From Thalassospiraceae bacterium LMO-JJ14 (lineage in GTDB: Bacteria; Pseudomonadota; Alphaproteobacteria; Rhodospirillales; Casp-alpha2): DNA of 64,000 bases. The notes beneath the pieces are model-generated. The model saw only the letters and a list, made by a program, of their open reading frames with translations, had not been told where the DNA came from and made no database searches. Position 1 is the stretch's first letter. Every line of letters begins with the position of its first letter. This document shows, in pieces, positions 35,511 through 49,201 of the stretch. The position numbers and the translations under genes were made by a program. The DNA lies in assembly GCA_021555105.2 (NCBI GenBank), contig CP134604.1:2604001-2668000 (forward strand). Direction: 5' to 3'.

Positions 35511-37592
35511 ATGCGTCCAGAAAACCTGTTTCCGCTGTTTAAGCCCGTGACGTCGTTGAAAGGCGTCGGCGCACGCACGGCCGAATTGATCGAAAAGGTT
35601 GCCGGGCCGCATATTATCGACCTGATCTGGCACCTGCCGACAGACATCATCGATCGCCGTTATCAGCCGAAAATCGCCGATGCACGGCCCGACAGTATCG
35701 CCACCATTACGCTCCGCATTACCAAGCATTATCCGCCGTTCAACAAACGTGCGCCCTATAAGATCGTCGGCATGGACGACACAGGCGCCATGAACCTTGT
35801 GTTTTTCCGCGCCCGTCCCGACTACCTTGCAAAGCAATTACCTGAAAACGAAGTCCGCGTCGTTTCCGGCAAAATAGAGAAATTCGGCGATACGCTGCAG
35901 ATGACGCATCCGGACCATATCGGCACGCAGCAGGAAATCGACTCCCTGAGCAAGGTTGAGCCGGTCTACCCGCTGACGGCCGGCCTGTCGCTGAAGGTGC
36001 TCGGCAAGGCAATGGCTGCAGCGCTGGAGATCCCGCCTGAATTACCCGAATGGCTCGACGGGCCGTTGATCGCACGCGAAAAGTGGCCGGCTTGGCGGGA
36101 CGCCGTCATGAGAGTGCACGCGCCTGAAAGCGACAGCGATCTCGACCCAGAAACGACGCCGCGTCGCCGCCTTGCCTATGACGAGCTGCTGTCGAACCAG
36201 TTGGCGCTGGCGTTGGTACGCGCACACATGAAAAAAACCAAGGGTCTGGCGCTGGTCGGCAATGGCAGTCTCCGCGCGAAGGTGCTCGCCGCCCTGCCTT
36301 TTACCCTGACAAATTCACAGCAGTTCGCGATTTCTGAAATCGACGGCGATCTTGCCGCCGATCACCGCATGCTCAGATTGTTGCAGGGCGATGTCGGGTC
36401 GGGAAAAACCGTCGTTGCACTGATGGCGATGCTGAGCGCCGTCGAGGCCGGTGGCCAGGCGGTCCTCATGGCGCCGACGGAGATTCTCGCCCGCCAGCAT
36501 CTTGCGACCCTATCGACGATGGCCGCGTCGGCAGACCTACAGCCGATCCTGCTGAGCGGTCGAGAACGCGGCAAGAAACGCGAAGAGTTGCTGGAAAAGC
36601 TCAAATCCGGCGCCGCACGGCTGGCGGTCGGTACGCACGCGCTTTTTCAGGACGATGTCGACTACAAGGACCTGCGCGTCGCCGTGATCGACGAGCAGCA
36701 CCGCTTCGGTGTGCACCAACGCCTGACGCTGGCCGCCAAGGGCCGCGCCGTCGACGTGCTGGTAATGACGGCAACACCGATACCGCGCACATTGATGCTG
36801 ACGGCCTATGGTGACATGGACGTATCGCGGCTGACCGAAAAACCGGCCGGGCGGAAACCGGTACAGACCGTGTTGATCTCGCAGGAACGTCTGGACGAGG
36901 TGGTTGCCGCCGTCAAACGAGCGCGCGAGTCAGGAGCGCGTGTGTATTGGGTATGCCCGCTGATCGAGGAAAGCGAAACTTCGGACATGGCGGCTGCCGA
37001 GGCGCGCTACGATCATCTTAAGTCGATCTTCGGCGAGCGGGTCGGCCTTGTGCACGGGCGTCTCAAGGGGGCGGAAAAAGATGCCGTAATGGCGGCATTC
37101 AAGGACGGTTCAATCGATATCCTTGTCGCCACCACGGTCATCGAAGTCGGCGTCGATGTACCGGAAGCAACCGTTATGGTCATTGAGCACGCCGAACGCT
37201 TCGGCCTCGCGCAATTGCACCAGCTCAGGGGCCGTATCGGCCGTGGCGCTGATAAATCCACTTGCCTGCTGCTGCATGCCGGTCATATCGGCGAAACGGC
37301 AAGGGAACGCCTGAAGACCATGCGTGAAACCGATGACGGCTTCGTCATCGCCGAAAAGGATCTGGAACTCAGGGGTGCCGGGGAACTGCTTGGTACGCGC
37401 CAGAGCGGCCTGCCGGAATTCCGACTCGCCGATATCGCTTCACATGGCGATTTGCTGACGATGGCCCGCGACGATGCGGAGTTGATCTTGCTGAACGATC
37501 CTGAACTGGAAAGCGCGCGCGGCAATGCGCTTCGTCAATTGCTGTATCTGTTCGAACGGGATGCGGCGATCCGTTATCTGCGTTCGGGCTGA
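35511..37592 (+). CDS. recG: ATP-dependent DNA helicase RecG
   Basis: The 693-residue enzyme remodels stalled replication forks and branched recombination intermediates. It has the wedge/OB domain at the N-terminus (VTSLKGVGARTAELIEKVAG, IATITLRITKHY, VRVVSGKIEKFGDTLQM), then superfamily 2 motifs GDVGSGKTVVALMAML, DEQHRFGVHQR, TATPIPRTL and RGRIGRGADKSTCLLL. The ATG at 35511 matches family starts (MRPENLFPLF); an upstream TTG at 35487 is less likely. It is divergent from sdhE-mfd. Confidence 0.96.
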   Translation: MRPENLFPLFKPVTSLKGVGARTAELIEKVAGPHIIDLIWHLPTDIIDRRYQPKIADARPDSIATITLRITKHYPPFNKRAPYKIVGMDDTGAMNLVFFRARPDYLAKQLPENEVRVVSGKIEKFGDTLQMTHPDHIGTQQEIDSLSKVEPVYPLTAGLSLKVLGKAMAAALEIPPELPEWLDGPLIAREKWPAWRDAVMRVHAPESDSDLDPETTPRRRLAYDELLSNQLALALVRAHMKKTKGLALVGNGSLRAKVLAALPFTLTNSQQFAISEIDGDLAADHRMLRLLQGDVGSGKTVVALMAMLSAVEAGGQAVLMAPTEILARQHLATLSTMAASADLQPILLSGRERGKKREELLEKLKSGAARLAVGTHALFQDDVDYKDLRVAVIDEQHRFGVHQRLTLAAKGRAVDVLVMTATPIPRTLMLTAYGDMDVSRLTEKPAGRKPVQTVLISQERLDEVVAAVKRARESGARVYWVCPLIEESETSDMAAAEARYDHLKSIFGERVGLVHGRLKGAEKDAVMAAFKDGSIDILVATTVIEVGVDVPEATVMVIEHAERFGLAQLHQLRGRIGRGADKSTCLLLHAGHIGETARERLKTMRETDDGFVIAEKDLELRGAGELLGTRQSGLPEFRLADIASHGDLLTMARDDAELILLNDPELESARGNALRQLLYLFERDAAIRYLRSG

Positions 37593-37600
37593 CCCGCTGG

Positions 37601-38440
37601 TCAGTCCTTACCGTCACTGGGCGTTTTTGCACTCTCATGGCGATCTCCCGGGCGGGTATTTTTCGCCAGTAGAACCGGATTTCCTTCCTTCTCGCGAAGC
37701 ACATCCAAATCCTCATAAGTCTGGGCGGAAACGACCGGTGTATTGCGCTGCGCCTCGGGACGCTCATCGGGCGGCGTCACAATACCACCGGAAATAACCA
37801 TCTTTATCGCATCCTCGACTGTCATCGACAGCGGCACGAGATCCTTCTTTGGCACAAACAGCAGAAACCCCGATGTCGGGTTCGGCGTTGTCGGCAGGAA
37901 CACGTTGATACAGTCTTCTTCCGTCAGGTTCTGGACTTCGCCTTTCGTCTGACCGGTCAGGAAGCCGATTGCCCACATGCCGCGCCGCGGATACTCGATC
38001 AGTACAGCTTCGCGAAAAGCGTTCGATTGCTGCGCCAATACGGTTTCAAGTATTTGCTTCACCGCTGAATACACATTCCGGATCACCGGCATCTGGCTCA
38101 AAATTCGCTCTGAAAAACGCATCCACAACCGGCCGAAGAAACCTGCGGTCAGCGCACCGACCAGCATCAAGGCGATAATCAGGACCACAAGGCCCAAACC
38201 CGGCACCGCAAACGGCAGATAAGACTCCGGATTGTACTTGGCCGGTATCAGCGGATTGATCTTGCTGTCGACAAAAGTCACGAACAGCCATGCCAGATAA
38301 AACGTTATGAAGATCGGTGCCGTTACCAGAACACCGGCAAACAGATATGCCCTCAAGCGTTGCGACAGGGACATCCGCGGCCGATGAGGCACCGTTCCTT
38401 CGTCCATATCACCACCCTTTTCCGGTTCCGCCGGTGTCAT
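37601..38440 (-). CDS. DUF502 family membrane protein
   Basis: The 279-residue protein has two membrane helices (about 30-55 and 78-105; YLFAGVLVTAPIFITFYLAW, GLVVLIIALMLVGAL) and a cytoplasmic or periplasmic soluble part containing FREAVLIEYPRRGMWAIGFLTG and NVFLPTTPNPTSGFLLFVP, the DUF502 signature. Its function is not known. AAGGA stands before the ATG. It is convergent with recG, eight bases apart. Confidence 0.9.
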   Translation of the reverse strand: MTPAEPEKGGDMDEGTVPHRPRMSLSQRLRAYLFAGVLVTAPIFITFYLAWLFVTFVDSKINPLIPAKYNPESYLPFAVPGLGLVVLIIALMLVGALTAGFFGRLWMRFSERILSQMPVIRNVYSAVKQILETVLAQQSNAFREAVLIEYPRRGMWAIGFLTGQTKGEVQNLTEEDCINVFLPTTPNPTSGFLLFVPKKDLVPLSMTVEDAIKMVISGGIVTPPDERPEAQRNTPVVSAQTYEDLDVLREKEGNPVLLAKNTRPGDRHESAKTPSDGKD

Positions 38441-38594
38441 TCTTTAATCCTTTCCTTCAGACATGCTATTTGGTGCCCAGAAACGCATTAACATCAAGCA
38501 GCGTTTCCTCAGCAGCCGTAATGGCGACTTCACCATACGTGCCATGTGATTTTGTGAAATCTCGTGGCAGCGCAGTTATGTGTGAATGTTCCCG

Positions 38595-38939
38595 TTATTT
38601 ATTTCGGACAGTTTCGACCAGTATACGCAGCAAGGCACGGATAAAGGGATCCGTCGTTTTCAGCTTCTGTTGATACATCGTCTTCGTGATGGTGACGATC
38701 GTTGCTCCGCCCTTAATTTTGGCCGTTGCCATTCGCGGTTGTTCGTCAATCAACGCCATTTCGCCGAATATACCGCCGACACCGATAGTGGCCAACTCCA
38801 CTTCTTCACCATTCTGCTGGCGGGTAATGACCACTTCCCCGGATTGGACGACATAGGCACTGCTGCCCTGTTCACCCTCACGGAATACTGTATCGCCGGA
38901 TTTCAGCGTCCGGCGCTCAAGAATATCAGCCACACCCAC
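38595..38939 (-). CDS. Cyclic-nucleotide-binding domain protein
   Basis: A 114-residue protein is almost entirely a cNMP-binding domain: LKSGDTVFREGEQGSSAYVVQSGEV, then IGVGGIFGEMALIDEQPRMATAKI, where the GEMAL and PRxATA box bind the nucleotide phosphate. There is no DNA-binding helix, so it may be an adaptor or bind partner proteins. The start is GTG at 38939, without a clear ribosome-binding site. Whether it binds cAMP or cGMP is unknown. Confidence 0.85.
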   Translation of the reverse strand: MGVADILERRTLKSGDTVFREGEQGSSAYVVQSGEVVITRQQNGEEVELATIGVGGIFGEMALIDEQPRMATAKIKGGATIVTITKTMYQQKLKTTDPFIRALLRILVETVRNK

Positions 38940-39031
38940 CCCCGTTATATATTGGACATTTTAATTGCCTTTTCAGGCTGTATTTTATTCATATGACGGC
39001 CAATTGTAAGTGAAGAAACACGGGAGCAGCT

Positions 39032-39487
39032 ATGACGGAGAACACAGGCCGCGAGTTTCCGCAGCGACCTCTCGTCGGCATCGGCGCGGTCATCGTCGGT
39101 CACAAGGGTGTCGTCCTGATCAAGCGAGGCAAAGCACCACGCTTAGGGAGCTGGAGTCTGCCCGGCGGCGCCCAGAAAATCGGTGAAACCGTCCATGCGG
39201 CGGCACTTAGGGAAATTCAGGAGGAAACCGGGCTGACGGCAGAAATCCGCGGACTGGTTGATGTTGTGGATTCAATTACCCCCGACCCGGATGGCCGCAT
39301 CAAATATCACTATACCCTCGTCGATCTGTGGGCCACGACCGATGCCGTGGCGGAACCGATAGCCGGGGGCGACGCTGCGGATGCCCAATGGTTTTCACTG
39401 GCTGATCTCGAAGGCCTGCAATTGTGGAGCGAAACCTTACGGGTCATCGATAAGGCGCACACACTATGGCAAGAATCGCATTCGTGA
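39032..39487 (+). CDS. Nudix hydrolase
   Basis: The 151-residue protein has the Nudix box GAQKIGETVHAAALREIQEE followed by TG, with the REIQEE metal-binding glutamates, on a typical barrel (GIGAVIVGHKGVVLIKRGKA, WSLPGG). This type is often ADP-ribose or nucleotide-sugar pyrophosphatase-like. GGGAGCAGCT precedes the ATG. Substrate is unknown. Confidence 0.9.
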   Translation: MTENTGREFPQRPLVGIGAVIVGHKGVVLIKRGKAPRLGSWSLPGGAQKIGETVHAAALREIQEETGLTAEIRGLVDVVDSITPDPDGRIKYHYTLVDLWATTDAVAEPIAGGDAADAQWFSLADLEGLQLWSETLRVIDKAHTLWQESHS

Positions 39488-39511: not shown

Positions 39512-40909
39512 TTACCGCTCGCGGAATGCCGTCGATACCGAGCTGTAAACAGGTTTCAGAAGATATTCGAACAAGGTCTTCTTGCCGGTCTTGATATCCG
39601 CCTGCACTGTCATACCCGGCATCACCCTGTTCTGCGATGGGTCGTGTCCCACGTAATTACGATCAAGCTCGATGATCCCCTTGTAATAGGGCTCACCCTT
39701 TTCATCGAGGAACGTCGATGCGGAAACATCCTTGAGCTCGCCGGTAATGCCGCCAAAGCGGGCGAAGTCATAGGTCGTGACCTTCACCACCACCGGCTGG
39801 CCGATCCGCACATGGCCGACATCGCGCGGTTTGATTTTTGCTTCAATGACCAGTTCCTTATCAAGCGGCACAATTTCCGTAATAATTTCACCCGGCGGAA
39901 TAATGCCGCCGATGGTGTGAATTTTGAGACCTTTGATAATACCACGGACCGGTGCAGATATTTTGAGTCGGCGCACCCGGTCGCGAGCCTGTATCAGTGC
40001 TTCCTCAACCTGGATGAGTTCGTTCGCACTTTCGCTCAGTTCCGCAAGTGCCTGCTCGCGGAAGTCTGTTTCGATCTCATCAAGGCGGCTTTGCGATTCC
40101 TTGATCGCTTCACTTGCCCGCTCACGCTCGGAAATCAGATCCGCCAATTCACCTCGCGCCGTGTTCATGGAGCGTTTGGCGTCGAGATATGAAATCTTCG
40201 ATGTCAGCCCTTCCTTGTAGAGTTTTTCCCGCACTTCGAGTTCTTCCGCGAAGATTTCCGCCGTGCGCGTCAGGGTCTGTTCCCGCTCATCGAGGGCCTG
40301 AAGATCGGAACGACGCTGTTCAATCTGTTTGCGGATCGTTTCCTGGCGACTGAAAAACGCCTCCAGCGAGCCTTCGTAAATACGCTGCTGATCATTGAGC
40401 ATATTGGGATAACGGCTACCGACCTTGGACCAATCTGGAACGCCGCCCGTACCAAGCGCGCGTAGCCGTTCGGAGCGTATTTCAAGACCGGCGCGGCGAG
40501 CTTCCAGCTTTTGCAGTTCGGTAACGGCGGCGGTTTCATCAAGGGCGATCAAAACCTGCCCCTGTTCGACCAGCTGCCCCTCTTCCAGAAGGATCTGTTT
40601 AACGATACCGCCTTCGAGGTGCTGTAGCGCCTGCACCTGCCCCGACGGAATGACTTCACCGGACGAGACCGCAACCTCATCGACATTTGTAACCATCGAC
40701 CAGCCAAGAAACAGCAAGATGACAATGCAAATCGTCAGCATTGCGCCCCGGATCAGCCCGGAACTGCCACCTTCTTCGAGAATAACCGATTGTGCCAGAA
40801 AACGCGTTTGGCGGTCGCCGCGGCGAATTTTCTTACGCCGGTCTTTCTCCGGTTCCCCCGGGGGCGCGGCATAATTCTGCTCGGTAACCTGCGATCCGTC
40901 AGCCATCAC
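39512..40909 (-). CDS. HlyD-family periplasmic adaptor of a type I secretion system
   Basis: The 465-residue membrane-fusion protein has one N-terminal membrane helix (LTICIVILLFLGWSMV, about 58-76), an alpha-helical hairpin rich in coiled coil (about 135-300), a lipoyl-like part (LQHLEGGIVKQILLEEGQLV) and a beta-barrel C-terminus with RVMPGMTVQADIKTGKKTLFEYLLKP, the HlyD family signature. It links the inner-membrane exporter to an outer-membrane TolC-like channel, not seen here. Its start overlaps the stop of the large ABC gene (ATGA). Confidence 0.93.
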   Translation of the reverse strand: MMADGSQVTEQNYAAPPGEPEKDRRKKIRRGDRQTRFLAQSVILEEGGSSGLIRGAMLTICIVILLFLGWSMVTNVDEVAVSSGEVIPSGQVQALQHLEGGIVKQILLEEGQLVEQGQVLIALDETAAVTELQKLEARRAGLEIRSERLRALGTGGVPDWSKVGSRYPNMLNDQQRIYEGSLEAFFSRQETIRKQIEQRRSDLQALDEREQTLTRTAEIFAEELEVREKLYKEGLTSKISYLDAKRSMNTARGELADLISERERASEAIKESQSRLDEIETDFREQALAELSESANELIQVEEALIQARDRVRRLKISAPVRGIIKGLKIHTIGGIIPPGEIITEIVPLDKELVIEAKIKPRDVGHVRIGQPVVVKVTTYDFARFGGITGELKDVSASTFLDEKGEPYYKGIIELDRNYVGHDPSQNRVMPGMTVQADIKTGKKTLFEYLLKPVYSSVSTAFRER

Positions 40910-43900
40910 ACAAAGTCCTTCGGCATCTGCTTGAGAACGTCAGCGGCGGGTCCGAAAGCACGTACGTTCCCGTATTCGAGCCATAAAATCTTATCGGCGA
41001 GACGAAGGTGGCTTGGACGGTGCGTCACCATCAGAATTGTCGTATCGCCGCGCATCCGATCCACGTTCTTCATAAATGCCTGATCGCTTGCGAAATCAAG
41101 ACCGTTGCCAGGCTCATCGAACAACATGATCGGTGAACGTTTGAGGTAACCCCGCGCCAGATTGAGCCGCTGCAGCAAACTGGTCGGCATTTGTCCGGAA
41201 CTGGAATCGCCGATGCGGACTTCGAAACCGTCCCGTTTCCATTTCCCCGAACCTTGTGTCAGTGCCAGGACATCGTCGAGCACACTCGCCATTTCACAGG
41301 CACGATAAATATCCTCGTCCGTCGCTGTCGGATGCGCCAGGCGCAGGTTCTGCGCAATCGTTCCATAGAAGAACTGAACAGTCTGCGGCACATAGGCAAC
41401 GGCATGGCGAAGCTCGACCGTATCCATCTGACGAATATCCATGTTGTCGATACGGATCGAACCTGCTTGCGGCGCATACATGCCTGCCAGAAGTTTCAAC
41501 GCAGTCGATTTACCGGATCCGTTCCCGCCGACAATACACAGAACTTCTCCGGGTTCGAGATCGAAGCTGACACCGACCAGAGCCGGGTCGCTATCCGGGC
41601 TGTAGCGGATCGAAACCCGGGCAAAAGTCACAAACCCCTCAATCTGTTTGATCGGATTGACCAGCGTATGCTGTTCGCGCTCACCCTTGATATTCATCAG
41701 GTTGTTGATCTGTGCGATCGAGGATTTCACCTGTGTCAGGCGCGTCAGCGAGATAAAGCCGGTCTGCAGCGGCGCCAGAACCCGCCACACAAGAATCATC
41801 GACGCCACCAGCCCGCCAACTGACATATCACCGTTCATGACCCGGAATACACCGAAAATTATGGTCCCCAATCCGGCCGAGATCATTAAAACATGCGAAA
41901 TCGTCTGCATCAGCGCGGAAAGCTGTGCCGTATAGAAACTGTTGAGAGCTGCCGTCGCCGAGTATTCGCGGAACCGCTCCATCCATTTTTCTTCTGCGCC
42001 GCAGTACTTGACCGCGCGCATACCGCTGAGGGTTTCGACGATCAGTTCCTGTTTCTTGGACGATGCGCGCGCCGCACGGCCGACCGAATGACGCAGCAGT
42101 GGCGTTATGATCAGCCCAAGGATGAAGAAGCACGCCATCATGATGACAGATATGAAAACCACCGGCCCGGCTAGCGCGGCAATGGTTATGATGAAGATGA
42201 ACACGAACGGCAATTCGAACAGAACAAGTGCCATGGGGCCCGTGAAGAAGTCGCGGATCGTTTCAAAATCCTTGATACGGGCAATCTGTGCACCAATCGT
42301 CGCACGCTCGGTAAATGTCGGTGGCAGGAACAGAATTTTGTGGAAGATGGCAATGCCGATAATGTTGTCCAGCCGGGCGCCGATGAACGCCATGATCTTC
42401 GATCTGATCATGCGCAGGATAATATCGCAGCCGATTGCAATGCCGACACCGAAAGCGAAGAAAGCCAATGTCGGTAACGAGCCTGTCGCCACAACCTTGT
42501 CATAGACCGCCATCACGAACAGCGGCGTCACGAGCGCCAGAATATTGAGTATGAAGGTAATCCCGAGTGTTTGATAAACCAGTGCACGAAAACGTTCCGT
42601 GACCGCACGGAACCAACCGAGCTTGGTTTGGGTTGACTGTATTTCGTCTGTATCGACGGGACTGAAGAAATATACCGTGCCGCGCATTTCACTACGCGGC
42701 ATCACACGTTCCTGATTCATACCGCCATCGAAAACGCGCAAGCCATCCGGCTCATAGCTCAGCAAAATGACCGCATCGCCTTCTTCAGGAAGATACAGGC
42801 ATGGGAACAAGCGCGGATCGATTTTCGTCAGGCGCATTTTCACAGGGCGGCTCTGGTAGTGCAGCGTCGCCATGATATTTCTGAACGAGGTGATATCGAG
42901 CTCGTTCGTGAAGTGAGGTAACGCTTCGGCAATATGGCGTTTGTCGCCGCGCCAGTTCAGTGCCTTCAGCAATTCCAAAAGACAGATCGAAAGATCTGTC
43001 GCTTCCTTCAGCGAGGCCAAGGCCGGGTCACTGTGCGCCGGCGGACCTTGTTCCGGCAAAGGCATTGGCCGCGGCACTTCCCCGCCACCATCTCCCCCCG
43101 AGCCGCCGGGTGGTGCCGGGGGCAGCGGTGGCATTGCAGCACGTTCGGTTACTGCCGTCGGCACACCATCCGCCGGGGAAGTATGCTCGTACTTGGGCAG
43201 CGGCTCGAACACACCGGGCAATGCAGGAAGCGGTGGTGGCGTATGCGGAGTCTTGGCCGTCCCTGGCGCATTGACTTTCGGCGACGGCGGCGCGGAAGGC
43301 TGCCTTGCCTGTGGTTGAGCTGGTTGCGGTGTGCGGGGCGATGGCGGCGCTTTTCTGGCCGCCGCCTGCGGCGGGGCCTTTGCGGCAGGTTGTGCGGGCT
43401 GCTGTTTGCGCTGCAGTTTTTCCGGCAATCCGACGCGGCGACGCCCGTCATCCGGCGGCGGCTGACTTGCTGCGGGCTTCGCAGGTGCAGGTGCTGAAGG
43501 CTGTTTTGGCGCAGCCTTTGGTTTGCGCGGTGTTATTGCGTCAACAGCCTGTTCTTTGCGTTTACGCAGGCGGGGCGGCACGCGCCCTCCCTTGGCCGGT
43601 GCCTGAAGCGCAGCCAAGGCCTTGTCAGCGAGGGCGTCGCGTTCTTCCTGTGTTTGCGCAGGCTTTTGTACGGGCTTTTGTGCTGCTCTTTGTACGGGCG
43701 GTTTCTCTGGCTGTTGGCGTGCAGCAGGGGCAGGTTTGCGGGCGGTTTGCGGGCTGACTTTCGGAGCAGAAGCAGGTGCGGACTTCGACGCCGGTGTTTC
43801 CGTTCTTGGCGTCGTTTCGCGTTCCATTTTTACATTAGGACGTGGCCCTCTGGCTGAGCTTCCGGCAACCGATGGCGACTCCGGTCTTTTGGCCGCAGGG

Positions 43901-44172
43901 CGTTTGCGTGCCTCGATCGGCGGCATGGGAACGCCTCGTTCATCGCCGGATGCGGGCTGAGCGGCAGCTGCCCCAGGCGATTGCGCTGCGGACGGTTGAC
44001 CGGAAGGTGCCGGACGGGCTTGCGGCGGCCGTGGTCTGTTTTCAATGCGTGGCTGTTTTGTGGACGAGCTATCTCTGTCACCGAAGACCCTGTCTACGGC
44101 GGTATCGACAGGCTCGACAACGCCGTCTTCGGCGTCATCCAGTGCTTCGATTTTTGAGAGTATACCGCTCAT
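40906..44172 (-). CDS. Type I secretion ABC exporter with long Pro/Ala-rich N-terminus
   Basis: The 1088-residue protein has about 390 N-terminal residues made mostly of Pro, Ala, Lys, Arg and Gln, then a C39-like peptidase-fold domain without clear catalytic residues (about 390-510), a six-helix membrane domain (530-820) and an ATPase domain. The ATPase keeps Walker A GGNGSGKST (882-890), the signature as SSSGQ (990-994), Walker B IMLFDE (1015-1020) and H-loop His1051. Usual exporters of this type lack the long disordered start. A second ABC exporter is encoded just upstream, with which it may pair. The substrate is unknown. Confidence 0.9.
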   Translation of the reverse strand: MSGILSKIEALDDAEDGVVEPVDTAVDRVFGDRDSSSTKQPRIENRPRPPQARPAPSGQPSAAQSPGAAAAQPASGDERGVPMPPIEARKRPAAKRPESPSVAGSSARGPRPNVKMERETTPRTETPASKSAPASAPKVSPQTARKPAPAARQQPEKPPVQRAAQKPVQKPAQTQEERDALADKALAALQAPAKGGRVPPRLRKRKEQAVDAITPRKPKAAPKQPSAPAPAKPAASQPPPDDGRRRVGLPEKLQRKQQPAQPAAKAPPQAAARKAPPSPRTPQPAQPQARQPSAPPSPKVNAPGTAKTPHTPPPLPALPGVFEPLPKYEHTSPADGVPTAVTERAAMPPLPPAPPGGSGGDGGGEVPRPMPLPEQGPPAHSDPALASLKEATDLSICLLELLKALNWRGDKRHIAEALPHFTNELDITSFRNIMATLHYQSRPVKMRLTKIDPRLFPCLYLPEEGDAVILLSYEPDGLRVFDGGMNQERVMPRSEMRGTVYFFSPVDTDEIQSTQTKLGWFRAVTERFRALVYQTLGITFILNILALVTPLFVMAVYDKVVATGSLPTLAFFAFGVGIAIGCDIILRMIRSKIMAFIGARLDNIIGIAIFHKILFLPPTFTERATIGAQIARIKDFETIRDFFTGPMALVLFELPFVFIFIITIAALAGPVVFISVIMMACFFILGLIITPLLRHSVGRAARASSKKQELIVETLSGMRAVKYCGAEEKWMERFREYSATAALNSFYTAQLSALMQTISHVLMISAGLGTIIFGVFRVMNGDMSVGGLVASMILVWRVLAPLQTGFISLTRLTQVKSSIAQINNLMNIKGEREQHTLVNPIKQIEGFVTFARVSIRYSPDSDPALVGVSFDLEPGEVLCIVGGNGSGKSTALKLLAGMYAPQAGSIRIDNMDIRQMDTVELRHAVAYVPQTVQFFYGTIAQNLRLAHPTATDEDIYRACEMASVLDDVLALTQGSGKWKRDGFEVRIGDSSSGQMPTSLLQRLNLARGYLKRSPIMLFDEPGNGLDFASDQAFMKNVDRMRGDTTILMVTHRPSHLRLADKILWLEYGNVRAFGPAADVLKQMPKDFV

Positions 44173-44209
44173 CCGAGTCTGTTACCTGTGCCTTTCCGTT
44201 ACTGTCGTA

Positions 44210-44422
44210 TCAGCCGAAATTGAAGTGCCTGCCGGGGCCACCCAGCCATCCGTCACGGGGAACGGAAAGCATCCGAAGCTCCGCCTCGGGGGTATGGCTT
44301 TTTCTGTTATTTTCGGTTTGCCCGGCGCCAGCAGATGGTTTGCCTTCATCGAGGCTATAGCTACAGGCAGCACCAAGGCCACCATCGGAAGCTTCAAGCT
44401 TTTTCAGTTTCGCGATTATCAT
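44210..44422 (-). CDS. 70-residue ORF between the two ABC exporter genes
   Basis: An ATG at 44422 overlaps the upstream ABC stop (ATGA), and the frame runs 70 codons to a stop 37 bases before the large ABC start. The product begins MIIAKLKKLEASDGGLGAAC and ends GWLGGPGRHFNFG; it has no signal peptide or membrane helix. A small hydrophilic product with a Gly-rich start, coupled to an exporter, could be a secreted substrate or a regulator, but this is a guess. Coding status rests on coupling and on filling the gap between two tight genes. Confidence 0.5.
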   Translation of the reverse strand: MIIAKLKKLEASDGGLGAACSYSLDEGKPSAGAGQTENNRKSHTPEAELRMLSVPRDGWLGGPGRHFNFG

Positions 44423-46155
44423 GAGTTCCCCTTCCCTTGTGAGGTTCCGATCTTTTCGCTCTCCGGCTGACGTTCCACTAGATGAGCGTCTTCGATATCA
44501 AAAATTCTGTCCGCAAGGCTGAGCATGGATGGGCGTGGCGTCACCAGGATCAGGGTAACCCTGCCCTTTAAGCGTTCTAACAGGTTACGGAGCGTGGAAT
44601 CGCCGGCACTGTCCATCGCCGCATTCGCTTCGTCGAACAACAGAACGCGGGGCTTGTCGACAAGCGCACGGGCGATGGCGATACGTTGTTTGATCCCCTT
44701 GGGCAGCTTGTCGCCGGCACCGTCGCCAACCTTGGTTTCATAGCCATGCGGCATGTGTGCAACAACATTGTCCAGACCGAGAAGGCGTGAAATATCCAAC
44801 GCCTCGTCAATCTTCTCGTCGCGAAACATCGTGACGTTTTCCAGGATTGTCCCGTTGAACAGCGCACCTTCCTGCGGCAAGTAGGCGATCTGGCGGCGTA
44901 TACTGGACGGGTCGTATTGATGCAGGTCCAGGCCGTCGGCCAATATCCTGCCCTCGGCCGGCGCGAATACACCCATGATAATGTACAAAAGCGTAGTCTT
45001 GCCGCTGGACCCTGAACCCGTGATGCCAATGGTTTCACCTGATTCAATTTCCAGATTGATGTTCTTGAACACTGCCGGCAAGTCTTCACCGTCCTTGTTC
45101 TTGCCATATGAGAAGCTCATGTTTTCGAGCTTCAGGTTGCCGCGGATCGGCGGCAGGAGCGGCAGACCGGCAGGCTTTTCCTCTTCCATATGAAATAGTT
45201 GCCGGACCCGGTCGAGCGACAACTGGATCGACTGGAACCGGGTCCAGATGCCGACGGCTTTTTGCAACGGCTGCATGGAGCGCCCTGCCAGCATGGTGCA
45301 GGCGGCCAGACCACCGACGGTCAGTTCGCCGTCAATGACGAACGTCGCGCCATAGCCGACAACGCAAAACAGGACCAATTGCGAAAACAAAGCGCCGGTC
45401 GAACTGGCCGTGGATGAATGCAGAGCAACATTGTAATCGGCAGTAGCGCAGGTTTCCTGCAGACGCTCGTATCGGCGGATCATCTGCTCTTCCATGGCCA
45501 GCCCCTTGACGGTGTGGATACCGCCCAGAACCTCAATGATGAAGCTGTACCGGCGGTCATCGGCCATCATCCGGCTTTCCAACGCTTTGCGCAGCCTGCT
45601 GCCGACAACCATTGCAGCCAGGGCAAAGAAGATAATCAGGGCGATCGGAATAAGAACCAGATGCCCCGCCAGATAATACATGGCACTCAGAAACAGGACC
45701 GCAAACGGCAGATCGCAAAGCGACAGAATGGCCTGACCGGCATAAAATTCCTTAAGCGGGCCGAGAGCATTGAAACGCTCCAGATGCACCCCTGACCCTT
45801 GGCGCTCGTAGTCGACGATTGAGACGTTGAGCAGCCGTTCCACCGCAGCCACACCCGCCAGATGTTCGAAGCGCGCGCCCATCCAGCCACTGACGTAGGA
45901 CCGGCCCTGCCGCAGGCAGGCTTCGAGGATCAACGCCGTGCCGACCCCGCTGATAAGCAGAATAAGCGTTCCTTCTGCTGAATTCGGGATAATGCGGTCA
46001 TAGACCTGCAGCAGCGTCAGCGGCATCGCCAACGCCAGCAGATTGATAAAAACCGAAGCGACGATCAGGTCAAACACGCCGCCTGGCGTATACGAAATAC
46101 GGCCAAGCTCGTTGCCCTGCGGCTTCGACGTTTTCAGCTTTTCAGCCAAGCCCAT
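44419..46155 (-). CDS. Type I secretion ABC exporter with degenerate ATP-site motifs
   Basis: The 578-residue half-exporter has six membrane helices (about 25-290) and an ATPase domain with Walker A GSGSSGKTT (380-388) and Walker B VLLFDEA (504-510, Glu509 present). The signature LSGGQ reads LPKGI (484-488), and the H-loop His is Pro540 in VTPRPS. Both changes are at catalytic sites. Heterodimeric ABC exporters often have one consensus and one degenerate site, so this subunit probably pairs with the 1088-residue exporter. It has no C39-like domain. Confidence 0.9.
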   Translation of the reverse strand: MGLAEKLKTSKPQGNELGRISYTPGGVFDLIVASVFINLLALAMPLTLLQVYDRIIPNSAEGTLILLISGVGTALILEACLRQGRSYVSGWMGARFEHLAGVAAVERLLNVSIVDYERQGSGVHLERFNALGPLKEFYAGQAILSLCDLPFAVLFLSAMYYLAGHLVLIPIALIIFFALAAMVVGSRLRKALESRMMADDRRYSFIIEVLGGIHTVKGLAMEEQMIRRYERLQETCATADYNVALHSSTASSTGALFSQLVLFCVVGYGATFVIDGELTVGGLAACTMLAGRSMQPLQKAVGIWTRFQSIQLSLDRVRQLFHMEEEKPAGLPLLPPIRGNLKLENMSFSYGKNKDGEDLPAVFKNINLEIESGETIGITGSGSSGKTTLLYIIMGVFAPAEGRILADGLDLHQYDPSSIRRQIAYLPQEGALFNGTILENVTMFRDEKIDEALDISRLLGLDNVVAHMPHGYETKVGDGAGDKLPKGIKQRIAIARALVDKPRVLLFDEANAAMDSAGDSTLRNLLERLKGRVTLILVTPRPSMLSLADRIFDIEDAHLVERQPESEKIGTSQGKGNS

Positions 46156-46360
46156 GCATTTTTCCGGCCGCTCAACGCAGCCGATCCTTCCGCTCCTGCA
46201 GCCCTGCCCGCAAAGACAAGGGTCCGCATACCGGTTTAGGCTTTTGTTGTTAATAAACCCTTATCAGCGCACCGGCATTGCTGCGGCAAACCCTTGATAA
46301 GCTTGGCGAACAGCGCTGACAGCATCCTTAACGGCAGAATATTTCAAGGCCGCAAAACGC

Positions 46361-47155
46361 CTATTCCGGGACTGCCATATAGGAACCGATAACAGTCTCC
46401 GCCTTGTCGCGGAATGCCCCCAGATCCATCCCCGGATTGATCCGTGGATCATACACTGTTCGGATCAGAATGCGATCCAGATCGGAGAGCTTCTGCAACA
46501 TGGCCGTTTCATTGAAGATCGAGGGACGCAGGCGATCGCTATCGTTTGGAAGGCCTAGTGATTGTGTTAATTCCTCTAATAAACAATGCTTTATATGATC
46601 ATCATCAAGTATCGAATTAATTACAATCCGGGCTTTGCTGACCGCCCATTCCCGGGTCGGCCAGATGATGAAGAAGCAGCGGCTCGGCCCCATTATCTGG
46701 CTTAATGTCTGCTTGGAAACACCGGGAAACGACAATCCCGACATCTGCATCCTTGGCACGATGGTGATTACGATATCACCGCCGACGCCAATATCGCGCG
46801 GCATCAGACGGATCGGCATGCCGGTAAGTTCGGCAAGATCCTGAATATGGCTTCTAAGCGCTGCATAATATATTTCGTGGGTCTGAGCCGGTACGGGAAC
46901 AGCCCGCCCCGTCGATGCATCCCGTGGTCCCGCGACCTTGGTTTCGAGACGGACGGTCGGTGCGTGCGTCCATTTGACCAGCCGCGTCCCCGGCTTGGAG
47001 CTGATCACCACATCTTCGGCAAAACGCCGGATGTCCTTCACGGAAGGAATGGGATTGAGTGTATCCGCAAAGGCGTGCAACGGCATCAGCAACCCGACGA
47101 CGATCACGGCCAGACGGATACAGGGACAAAATGCGTTACTGGCCAAGCTGTTCAC
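46361..47155 (-). CDS. DUF2927 secreted protein, copy 2
   Basis: The 264-residue protein has a signal peptide (about 1-30) and the DUF2927 core ending HCLLEELTQSLGLPNDS, PSIFN and DLDRILIRTVYDPRINPGM. The conserved EELTQ.LGLPNDS stretch resembles the helix of a zincin-type metallopeptidase without the full HExxH. It overlaps the stop of the first DUF2927 gene by 20 bases. The two paralogues precede the exporter genes on the same strand, so they could be accessory factors or substrates; this is inferred. Confidence 0.85.
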   Translation of the reverse strand: MNSLASNAFCPCIRLAVIVVGLLMPLHAFADTLNPIPSVKDIRRFAEDVVISSKPGTRLVKWTHAPTVRLETKVAGPRDASTGRAVPVPAQTHEIYYAALRSHIQDLAELTGMPIRLMPRDIGVGGDIVITIVPRMQMSGLSFPGVSKQTLSQIMGPSRCFFIIWPTREWAVSKARIVINSILDDDHIKHCLLEELTQSLGLPNDSDRLRPSIFNETAMLQKLSDLDRILIRTVYDPRINPGMDLGAFRDKAETVIGSYMAVPE

Positions 47156-47945
47156 TCATGATTTCCCGCCCGATACGAAGCGCATCGAGACGTGGCGTTC
47201 CCGCGGGCAAGCGCTTGTCATAAAGCGTTTTCAGCATGATCAGATCGCTATTCGTGAGGGTCCGCAGGGTTGATTTCTGATTGAAAATGGATGGTGTCAC
47301 AAGATCACTGTCATTTGGAAGTCCCATAGCCTGGGTCATTTCCTCAAGCAAGCAAGCATCCATCTGATCCGGCGGCAATTCAGCATTCACGACGATCAGG
47401 CTCCGGAACATGGCGCCGGTACGGATCGAGCGGCTGAGAAAATAACAAACGCCTGCCTGCCCCAGACGCTTGAGGACCTGCGGATCGACATCATTGGCGA
47501 CGAATGGCTGCCCCATGGCAAGCCGGGGGACAAACTTGATGATGAAGTTTGCCGGCTTGCCTTTTTCCTTGTCGCTTTTCTCGGATTTCGCACCGGTCAG
47601 CCTTACAAGCGTCGTCAAATGCTTACGGATCATATCGACATGCGCTTTGGCGGGCGGCACGAAGCTCAGTTTCAACTCCCGTTTGCCGTCCGGTTTGGCG
47701 ATCATCTTGCCCTGCATGGAAGTGATCGAGACGCGGATCGGAGTCATCCATTTTTGGATATGCTCGGTCGGTTTGACGCCCTCGATCTCCGCACCGAACA
47801 CAACGTTATCAAAATGCCTCATGAGATCGTCCGCCCCAGGTTCCTGGGCATGCGTGGGCGAAACTGCTGTCATGAACGGCAGAACAAGCGCCAGCACACA
47901 TAGACGCGCCCGTACTTCGGGTCTTTTCAGGGCAGTCATAATCAT
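47136..47945 (-). CDS. DUF2927 secreted protein, copy 1
   Basis: The 269-residue protein has a signal peptide ending near THAQ-EPGADD and the DUF2927 core with ACLLEEMTQAMGLPNDS, PSIFNQKSTLRTLT and LIMLKTLYDKRLPAGTP. It differs from copy 2 but shares the C-terminal half closely enough to be a tandem duplicate. ATG at 47945 or 47939 both fit; a TTG at 47966 is less likely. It lies 32 bases after the two-domain secreted protein gene. Confidence 0.85.
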   Translation of the reverse strand: MIMTALKRPEVRARLCVLALVLPFMTAVSPTHAQEPGADDLMRHFDNVVFGAEIEGVKPTEHIQKWMTPIRVSITSMQGKMIAKPDGKRELKLSFVPPAKAHVDMIRKHLTTLVRLTGAKSEKSDKEKGKPANFIIKFVPRLAMGQPFVANDVDPQVLKRLGQAGVCYFLSRSIRTGAMFRSLIVVNAELPPDQMDACLLEEMTQAMGLPNDSDLVTPSIFNQKSTLRTLTNSDLIMLKTLYDKRLPAGTPRLDALRIGREIMSEQLGQ

Positions 47946-47977
47946 AAAACGAAGTCTAGCACGCAACGGGGTCGGAT

Positions 47978-49201
47978 CTAACCCTCGCCACCGTCAATTT
48001 TAAGTGAATTCAGTATCCGTTCGGCAACCGGCCGATAGGTATCGAATTGCGACGCCGGCGCCGTATATGACCAGATATGGGCAATCCCCCCTTCAGGCCT
48101 GGGGATCACCAACGCCCACTTGCGGAAGCGTTGGCCCTGATGGTCATAACTGGCGACAAACTGATGTCCTTCCAGCTTTAGTCCGTACTTGGCATAAGTC
48201 ACCGGTTTCTCGCCGACGAACTGGACCCCGCGGGCCTGTTGAGCCAAATTCGCTTTCAGATTTTCAATCGCAACAAGTGCCACGTCCCCCTCACCTGCGG
48301 GCCTGACGTTCTGTAAGGAGACAATGGCGTCATAAGCCGGGGTGCCTCGTGGCCCGCTGATGGCATTGGTGAACGCGCTCAGCTTCTCGAACTGCCAGGC
48401 CGACGGGTACTCGACGCGGTAACCATATCCGGCCTCGGAAAAAACGATAACGTCAGGCGCACTTGCAGCCTCGGCAACCTGCGGGCGACCGGCAGGATTT
48501 GCTTCCGGCGCATTTTCGGCCCGTAACGGCGGCTGTTTTTCCTTCGCTTCCTCCGGCTGCGCCATATGGGCAGGCTCTGCAGGTTTTTCTGCCCGTGCCG
48601 GACGAAAGCCGGCAAGAATCCATTCAAATTCAACAGAAAGTTTTTCGAAATGGCTTATAGGCGCGAAGAACATGAAGACAAAATCCGTCTTCGCCCCACG
48701 GGCGATAACGACCCTCGTCTTGGTCGATCCGGCTTCGTATAGCGCATATCCAGCCGGCAACCCGGCAATCACCAGATCTCCTTCGGCAAGTTTTCGGGCC
48801 CAGGGCTTTCCTTCACCAAGATACTGCGCTTCAAGTTTATAGAACATCTGCCGTGTCCCGATTCCAGGATTGGCATCACCGGTCTGAATATTGACGCCAT
48901 ACCCCTTGCGCGACTGGATGGCGATTTGTTGTCCACCTGGCCGCTCCTGGAAACGCGCGCCCGCAGGTGCAACCAGCATGTATCCACGCTGAGGGTCCTG
49001 ATATGCGACCGGCTGTGATGGAACGTGGCTCATTGTCCCAGGGATGGACGGCTGCACACTCGGCGATGCGGCTGCAACACTCGGATGAATACTGTTCTGC
49101 GGCACCATTCCCGGTGCGCCCGTACCATCAGCGATGGCACTGTGCATATTCGCGGCTGCTAAAACGACGGCACTGATCAATATAATCGATTGTTTGCGCA
49201 T
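47978..49201 (-). CDS. Secreted protein with two PsbP/DUF1795-like repeats
   Basis: The 407-residue product from ATG 49201 (GGGAG seven bases upstream) has a signal peptide (about 1-25), a Ser/Pro-rich linker, one beta-rich domain (RGYMLVAPAGARFQERPGG ... FEWILAGFRPA), an Ala/Pro/Glu linker and a second similar domain (YGYRVEYPSAWQFEKL ... YRPVAERILNSLKI). The repeated pattern Y.Y.V..P..W/RF...FEL...ER resembles PsbP or DUF1795 folds. It opens the minus-strand locus that ends in the exporter genes. Function unknown. Confidence 0.75.
   Translation of the reverse strand: MRKQSIILISAVVLAAANMHSAIADGTGAPGMVPQNSIHPSVAAASPSVQPSIPGTMSHVPSQPVAYQDPQRGYMLVAPAGARFQERPGGQQIAIQSRKGYGVNIQTGDANPGIGTRQMFYKLEAQYLGEGKPWARKLAEGDLVIAGLPAGYALYEAGSTKTRVVIARGAKTDFVFMFFAPISHFEKLSVEFEWILAGFRPARAEKPAEPAHMAQPEEAKEKQPPLRAENAPEANPAGRPQVAEAASAPDVIVFSEAGYGYRVEYPSAWQFEKLSAFTNAISGPRGTPAYDAIVSLQNVRPAGEGDVALVAIENLKANLAQQARGVQFVGEKPVTYAKYGLKLEGHQFVASYDHQGQRFRKWALVIPRPEGGIAHIWSYTAPASQFDTYRPVAERILNSLKIDGGEG

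Follow-up and report, generated by a model that had tools for sequence, protein, structure and literature searches.

The core of the locus described here is B-A-HlyD, i.e. two ABC exporter genes and one adaptor gene, and its two ABC proteins, A and B, most probably combine into a heterodimeric type I exporter. This reading is strongly supported because B-A fusions exist in relatives, because A and B form mirrored clades and because asymmetric ATP-site motifs fit only an A+B pair. In most descriptions type I exporters are homodimers, MARTX being the noted exception. The locus lies in a window of 64,000 nucleotides, the whole stretch of DNA analysed, from Thalassospiraceae bacterium LMO-JJ14 (contig CP134604.1, positions 2,604,001 to 2,668,000); the source genome is complete (3.89 Mb). 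An order-wide family with natural B-A fusions bears on the question why protein export should require two dissimilar halves, and on the role of a degenerate ATP site. The locus further offers cargo predictions for orphan giant adhesins and for an unannotated C-terminal tail, what appears to be a real operon microprotein, and a structural reading of DUF2927.

Organization of the locus

An initial annotation of this DNA had reported seven minus-strand genes including an HlyD adaptor, two ABC exporters and a 70-codon ORF. All were recovered, and at the same positions (Table 1). B overlaps ORF70 and A overlaps HlyD by 4 bp each; the two DUF2927 genes overlap by 20 bp, and a gap of 205 bp follows between DUF2927 protein 2 and B. 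This spacing suggests two blocks, two-domain-DUF2927-DUF2927 and B-ORF70-A-HlyD. In almost all B-A loci inspected, A was followed by HlyD. Read by eye, a hydrophobic stretch resembling a signal peptide opens all three periplasmic candidates. The two DUF2927 proteins scored 111.9 and 119.8 bits with PF11150 versus a gathering score of 26.2. Protein 1 may start at TTG 47966 or ATG 47945, and the two-domain protein has its Met start at 49201 within a mechanical ORF that extends to 49246. The locus itself contains no substrate gene and no TolC gene.

Table 1. Features of the exporter locus (window positions) and of two candidate cargo genes (genome positions).
Feature	Position	Strand	Evidence or remark
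NUDIX gene, conserved syntenic marker flanking the exporter	39032-39487	+	synteny table; outside the machine
HlyD-family type I secretion periplasmic adaptor	39512-40909	-	TIGR01843, 417.9 bits versus cut-off 208.65
ABC-A, predicted exporter half, 1,088 aa	40906-44172	-	PF00664 and PF00005
ORF70, 70-codon ORF between B and A, predicted conserved microprotein	44210-44422	-	
ABC-B, predicted exporter half, 578 aa	44419-46155	-	PF00664 and PF00005
DUF2927 protein 2, predicted secreted, GTG start	46361-47155	-	PF11150, E 6e-32
DUF2927 protein 1, predicted secreted	47136-47966	-	PF11150, E 2e-34
Two-domain secreted protein, PsbP-like by relatives	47978-49201	-	neighbour of the exporter, membership unproven
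7,268-aa protein with cadherin/Ig and RTX repeats	genome 2758611-2780417		tail at residues 7191-7268
586-aa RTX protein	genome 2534901-2536661		tail at residues 510-585

Two unlike ABC halves

ABC-A starts with a Pro/Ala-rich N-terminal extension of ~385 aa which is followed by a C39-like domain (about residues 386-505), a TMD and an NBD. On visual inspection the C39-like domain seems to have other residues where the catalytic Cys and His would normally be. In most other families the extension (window 43017-44172) is far shorter, with ~35-60 aa before the C39-like domain. ABC-B is without a C39-like domain. The best-scoring NCBI model for both proteins was LssB (TIGR03375), not the HlyB model. 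The scores of 518.4 (A) and 448.3 bits (B) are both under the curated cut-off of 693.1, and the alignment of A (518 bits) includes the C39-like part.

The ATP-site motifs of the two proteins differ. A retains Walker A/B and the H-loop and has a degenerate signature (SSGQMPTSLLQR); B has the signature LPKGIKQR and a Pro in place of the H-loop His. The Walker A lysine and the Walker B glutamate are intact in both. Across the aligned sequences 50 of 52 A proteins retained the H-loop His, against 18 of 53 B proteins (35 have lost it), and the signatures were LPTSF-like in A and LPRGI-like in B. As a control, the homodimer-type exporter of the same genome (locus L076) has LSGGQ. With respect to the H-loop His and the signatures, the asymmetric motif loss would leave one degenerate composite site in the predicted A+B dimer.

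An order-wide search with ABC-B covered 297 genomes (threshold E<=1e-80) and gave matches in 163. The gene order B-A-HlyD was the rule in 40 fetched loci and in further sets. In 15 inspected genomes B and A are fused into one polypeptide of ~1,300-1,470 aa, with B first (L067-L074, L238, L239, L241-L244, and L216 from Azospirillum sp. B510 pAB510c); the closest named plasmid-borne relatives are from Azospirillum. As evidence for a physical A-B dimer such fusions are indirect. A tree of 118 sequences, with some low-support and some flagged long branches, separated A (support 99) from B (support 100) as sister clades with largely mirrored branching. The halves of the fused proteins grouped in the matching A or B clade, at three separate places in the tree. 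A scan of contigs with the ABC-B profile returned generic ABC patterns and no close relatives among the matches listed. The genome of the window contains a second, more diverged A-B-HlyD system at 2039518-2045300 (L075).

Candidate cargo and proposed mechanism

The missing substrate at the locus had been pointed out initially, and a search for RTX substrates and a TolC partner elsewhere had been proposed. The lack of a nearby RTX gene is true locally; elsewhere the genome encodes several RTX proteins, the longest open frame being 9,372 aa. TolC-type genes were found as well: TIGR01844 had four matches, two of them over cut-off and all unlinked to the locus. The 9,372-aa RTX open frame (2217087-2245205; L217, L218) has FecR and weak BapA_N matches at its N-terminus, and no secretion genes were called beside it.

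In relatives from several families giant RTX/Ig-type proteins directly adjoin B-A; the neighbour in Azospirillum is a 5,519-aa Ig-like protein. The exporter-linked giants have a common C-terminal tail, loosely G-GW-D ... W---LDG ... DG--L-F-N-E-I-W, and in alignments several display an N-terminal LDDLTxL followed by IHxGT. In the scans made, no Pfam or NCBIfam model covered the tail or the N-terminal element. A tail profile, a short model with diverse members, was built with the window's own genome left out. It had exactly two matches in that genome, both of them orphan RTX proteins (E 9e-13 and 1.6e-6; Table 1) and both at the extreme C-terminus; the other RTX proteins of the genome do not match. 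A profile of the N-terminal element matched proteins of the same genome weakly (best E 0.0035), the motif being derived from the alignments. For an order-wide comparison het-type B was defined as E below 1e-135 in the B search. Of the 297 genomes, 92 had the tail and 121 had het-type B; the two co-occurred in 82, giving an odds ratio of 35 with p 1.5e-31 in a Fisher test that takes no account of relatedness. Within the family of the window the link was weak; by hand count about 11/23 genomes with B have the tail versus 7/~25 without B. Of ten tail-only genomes two have A (G028, G109). Those without A include G147, G201, G265 and G127, and the first three of these have an LssB-type exporter. 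The 7,268-aa and 586-aa proteins are thus moderately supported candidates for giant-adhesin cargo; support goes no further because the tail is also present in some relatives that lack this exporter.

We consider it rather probable that the A+B heterodimer exports these two RTX proteins in trans via HlyD and TolC. B, ORF70, A and HlyD would constitute a type I exporter, the inner-membrane ABC unit of which would be an obligate A+B heterodimer. A near-canonical composite ATP site would be formed by the Walker motifs and H-loop of A and the better preserved, LPRG-type signature of B; the Walker motifs of B, with the H-loop His lost, and the signature of A would form the degenerate one. Turnover of ATP might be confined to one site, the other remaining mainly ATP-bound, as in other degenerate-site exporters. 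HlyD would link the pump to one of the unlinked TolC channels of the genome. The cargo would be encoded in trans, the likeliest candidates being the orphan cadherin/Ig/RTX giant and the smaller RTX protein, and export would result in surface adhesion. Recognition may proceed via the distinct C-terminal tail and possibly also via the N-terminal LDDLTxL element. ORF70 as a presumed cytoplasmic microprotein may have the same binding partner as the N-terminus of A. PsbP-like and DUF2927 proteins as a pair would be a separable periplasmic module, with an export role that is unproven. A broader reading, which we regard as quite unlikely, is that of an alphaproteobacterial class of heterodimeric exporters which has its own cargo code (C-terminal tail plus N-terminal LDDLTxL/IHxGT) and is regulated by a microprotein imitating the N-terminus of one ABC half and, in some lineages, also by zinc-less-metzincin DUF2927 and PsbP-like proteins in the periplasm, which would hold or license the giant adhesin and not cut it in the manner of LapG.

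Alternative readings of exporter, cargo and periplasmic neighbours

Both A and B possess a complete TMD and NBD and intact Walker A lysine and Walker B glutamate, as would be expected if each formed a homodimer, i.e. if two independent type I exporters shared an adaptor by chance. However, an A-A dimer would contain two degenerate signatures and a B-B dimer two sites without the H-loop His. In addition, the B-A fusion recurs and the trees of A and B are mirrored. Finally, B of the second pair (L075) carries a K to R exchange in Walker A (GDNSSGRST) and an E to N exchange in Walker B (LFDNANHGLD), because of which it could not work alone. Two homodimers are therefore very improbable. A different cargo for the same heterodimer is, in our view, somewhat unlikely. 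Here, the LssB/LapB-type L076 exporter, located ~43 kb from the gene for the 7,268-aa protein, would export the tail-bearing giants, and the substrate of the exporter at the recG site would be one that is unrecognised. The congeners G147 and G201 have a tail-bearing protein and an LssB-type, L076-like exporter and are without a window-type exporter; because of this pattern another pump, e.g. that of L076, may be the one that handles the tail. Further, exporters of the window type at the recG site hardly ever have a substrate next to them, and the tail is absent from 39 genomes having het-type B. On the other hand, giants with the tail or the N-terminal motif directly adjoin B-A in several families. 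These include family f31, where exporters of the window's own subclade adjoin such RTX genes (L230, L256). The order-wide co-occurrence of tail and het-type B likewise argues for export of the giants by the A+B pair.

The periplasmic neighbours were examined by synteny. In the synteny table an old conserved site reads recG - DUF502 - cNMP-binding - NUDIX - HlyD-A-B - DUF2927 - two-domain. In the window recG, a DUF502-like membrane protein, a cNMP-binding protein and NUDIX occupy 35520-39487, an order-wide syntenic block beside the exporter site. PsbP-like/DUF2927 is a separable module at this site, and either part occurs alone. The DUF2927 and two-domain (PsbP-like) genes are kept with the exporter absent in L305-L309, L311, L312, L313 and L316; L318, L319, L321 and L323 retain the two-domain gene alone; and the exporter is present without a DUF2927 or two-domain gene in L082, L085, L090, L100, L101, L104, L231, L232, L325 and L326, several of these loci being on draft contigs. 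The initial annotation had inferred a heterodimeric exporter with dedicated periplasmic accessory factors. While its heterodimer agrees with the fusions, clades and motifs, the designation as dedicated did not hold. The refutation test that it had set itself, homologous loci without these genes, turned out largely against it, as 55 of 74 B loci have no DUF2927 gene immediately upstream of B; in addition, several families retain PsbP-like/DUF2927 genes at this site where the exporter is missing. Separability of the modules argues against dedicated accessories, and also against chance. Chance proximity of periplasmic genes and exporter was rejected, the site being conserved across the order. Dedicated accessories which, e.g., bind the exported chain or a retained N-terminus would be compatible with a heterodimer. 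In favour of them, DUF2927 is directly upstream of B on the same strand in the other 19 of 74 loci. Within the genus of the window DUF2927 genes and exporter occur together in three genomes (L087, L088 and the window) and both are absent in two (L319, L321). L310, L314 and L315, from a further genus of the family, have a strongly diverged two-ABC exporter (~30% identity), again at this site and adjoining DUF2927 and the two-domain gene. Yet all three separated arrangements exist, and only 22 of 115 DUF2927 matches in the order are near B. Such a role is, in our judgement, rather unlikely.

A small ORF between B and A

The 70-codon ORF noted initially between the ABC genes has counterparts in other genomes. 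The congeners L087 and L088 have an in-frame ORF of ~60 codons between B and A which is 42-55% identical to ORF70; both ends are conserved (MIAKLKKLEA-DG ... P-PEL-M---PRDGWL-GPGR) and the middle is variable. L090, L091 and L092 have a small ORF between B and A starting with (M)IxxKLxKIEAxD, and a related one is present in L102. Because of its conservation in congeners and of similar small ORFs at the same place in other genera, ORF70 is, judged by sequence, a real conserved microprotein and more than a chance reading frame. Its N-terminus (MIIAKLKKLEASDG) resembles that of ABC-A (MSGILSKIEALDD), and the two may have a docking motif in common.

Comparison with known exporters

Two-ABC type I systems are already known, i.e. 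RtxB/RtxE of MARTX, and the present locus is a variant. In the four-component MARTX type I system of Vibrio (RtxB, RtxD, RtxE, TolC) both RtxB and RtxE are needed and a heterodimer was suggested (PMC3034196, PMC4316617). Compared by description, both systems have two different ABCs, one adaptor and an unlinked TolC. In MARTX, however, the adaptor is located between the two ABCs, whereas the order here is B-A-HlyD. B-A fusions and a best match of both ABCs to the LssB rather than the HlyB model are further differences. The linked neighbours in relatives are giant Ig/cadherin/RTX adhesin-like proteins, not MARTX toxins, and no MARTX toxin gene is within the locus. No paper describing this two-ABC family was found in the literature searched, and such absence is not proof of novelty.

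With LssB/LapB (TIGR03375; LapBCE) the locus shares the best NCBI model for both ABCs and the C39-like domain in A, and with LapA export the predicted giant adhesin cargo. Unlike LapB, a single ABC gene, there are two ABCs here, both below the cut-off, and B is without the C39-like part. LapG cuts the giant adhesin. A LapG-like protease (PF06035, sole match) is encoded at 2015204 (L300), ~3 kb from a 4,302-aa RTX adhesin (1999410-2012318; L221) and not at the exporter locus. TAP/ABCB2-B3, TM287/288 and BmrCD are heterodimeric ABC exporters with a degenerate site (PMC7756269). Here too the motifs predict a pair of composite ATP sites, one near-canonical and the other degenerate. In contrast, TAP, TM287/288 and BmrCD move peptides or drugs whereas protein secretion is concerned here, and both signatures of the present pair deviate from LSGGQ.

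DUF2927 and the two-domain protein

In DUF2927 protein 2 the family motif reads CLLEELTQSLGLPND. In the pattern EExxQxxGxxND the residues E, E, Q, G, N and D are invariant in all 23 aligned DUF2927 members. The zinc motif HExxHxxGxxH/D is absent from the DUF2927 proteins of the locus, EExxQxxG being in place of HExxHxxG. An AF2 model of protein 1 generated from 4 sequences (pLDDT 75.7, pTM 0.69) aligned with matrix metalloproteases, which are metzincins, at a VIA Z of 9.2 and 3.3 A over about 140 residues; Foldseek gave a weak E of 0.03. Because of this shallow model and the replaced zinc motif we infer that the DUF2927 proteins of the locus may be metzincin-like with the zinc ligands lost. 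Neither the DUF2927 profile nor that of the two-domain family had a genuine match in the PDB, antibody light chains among the matches being regarded as chance, and an open-access literature search retrieved no DUF2927 paper.

In the two-domain family Pfam PsbP matched 7 of 16 relatives and PsbP_2 matched 3 (1.1e-7); the window member is without a Pfam match, and modelled alone by AF2 it reached a pLDDT of 39.5, too low for the model to be of use. A scan of viral contigs for this family found none. Two tandem DUF2927 relatives are present on a viral-catalogue contig, IMGVR_UViG_3300009702_001280 (L299:5506-7130). They read HELVHLIGFRNH and HDLVHALGMLFH, i.e. HExxH-type or HDxxH zinc-like motifs including HELVHLIG.
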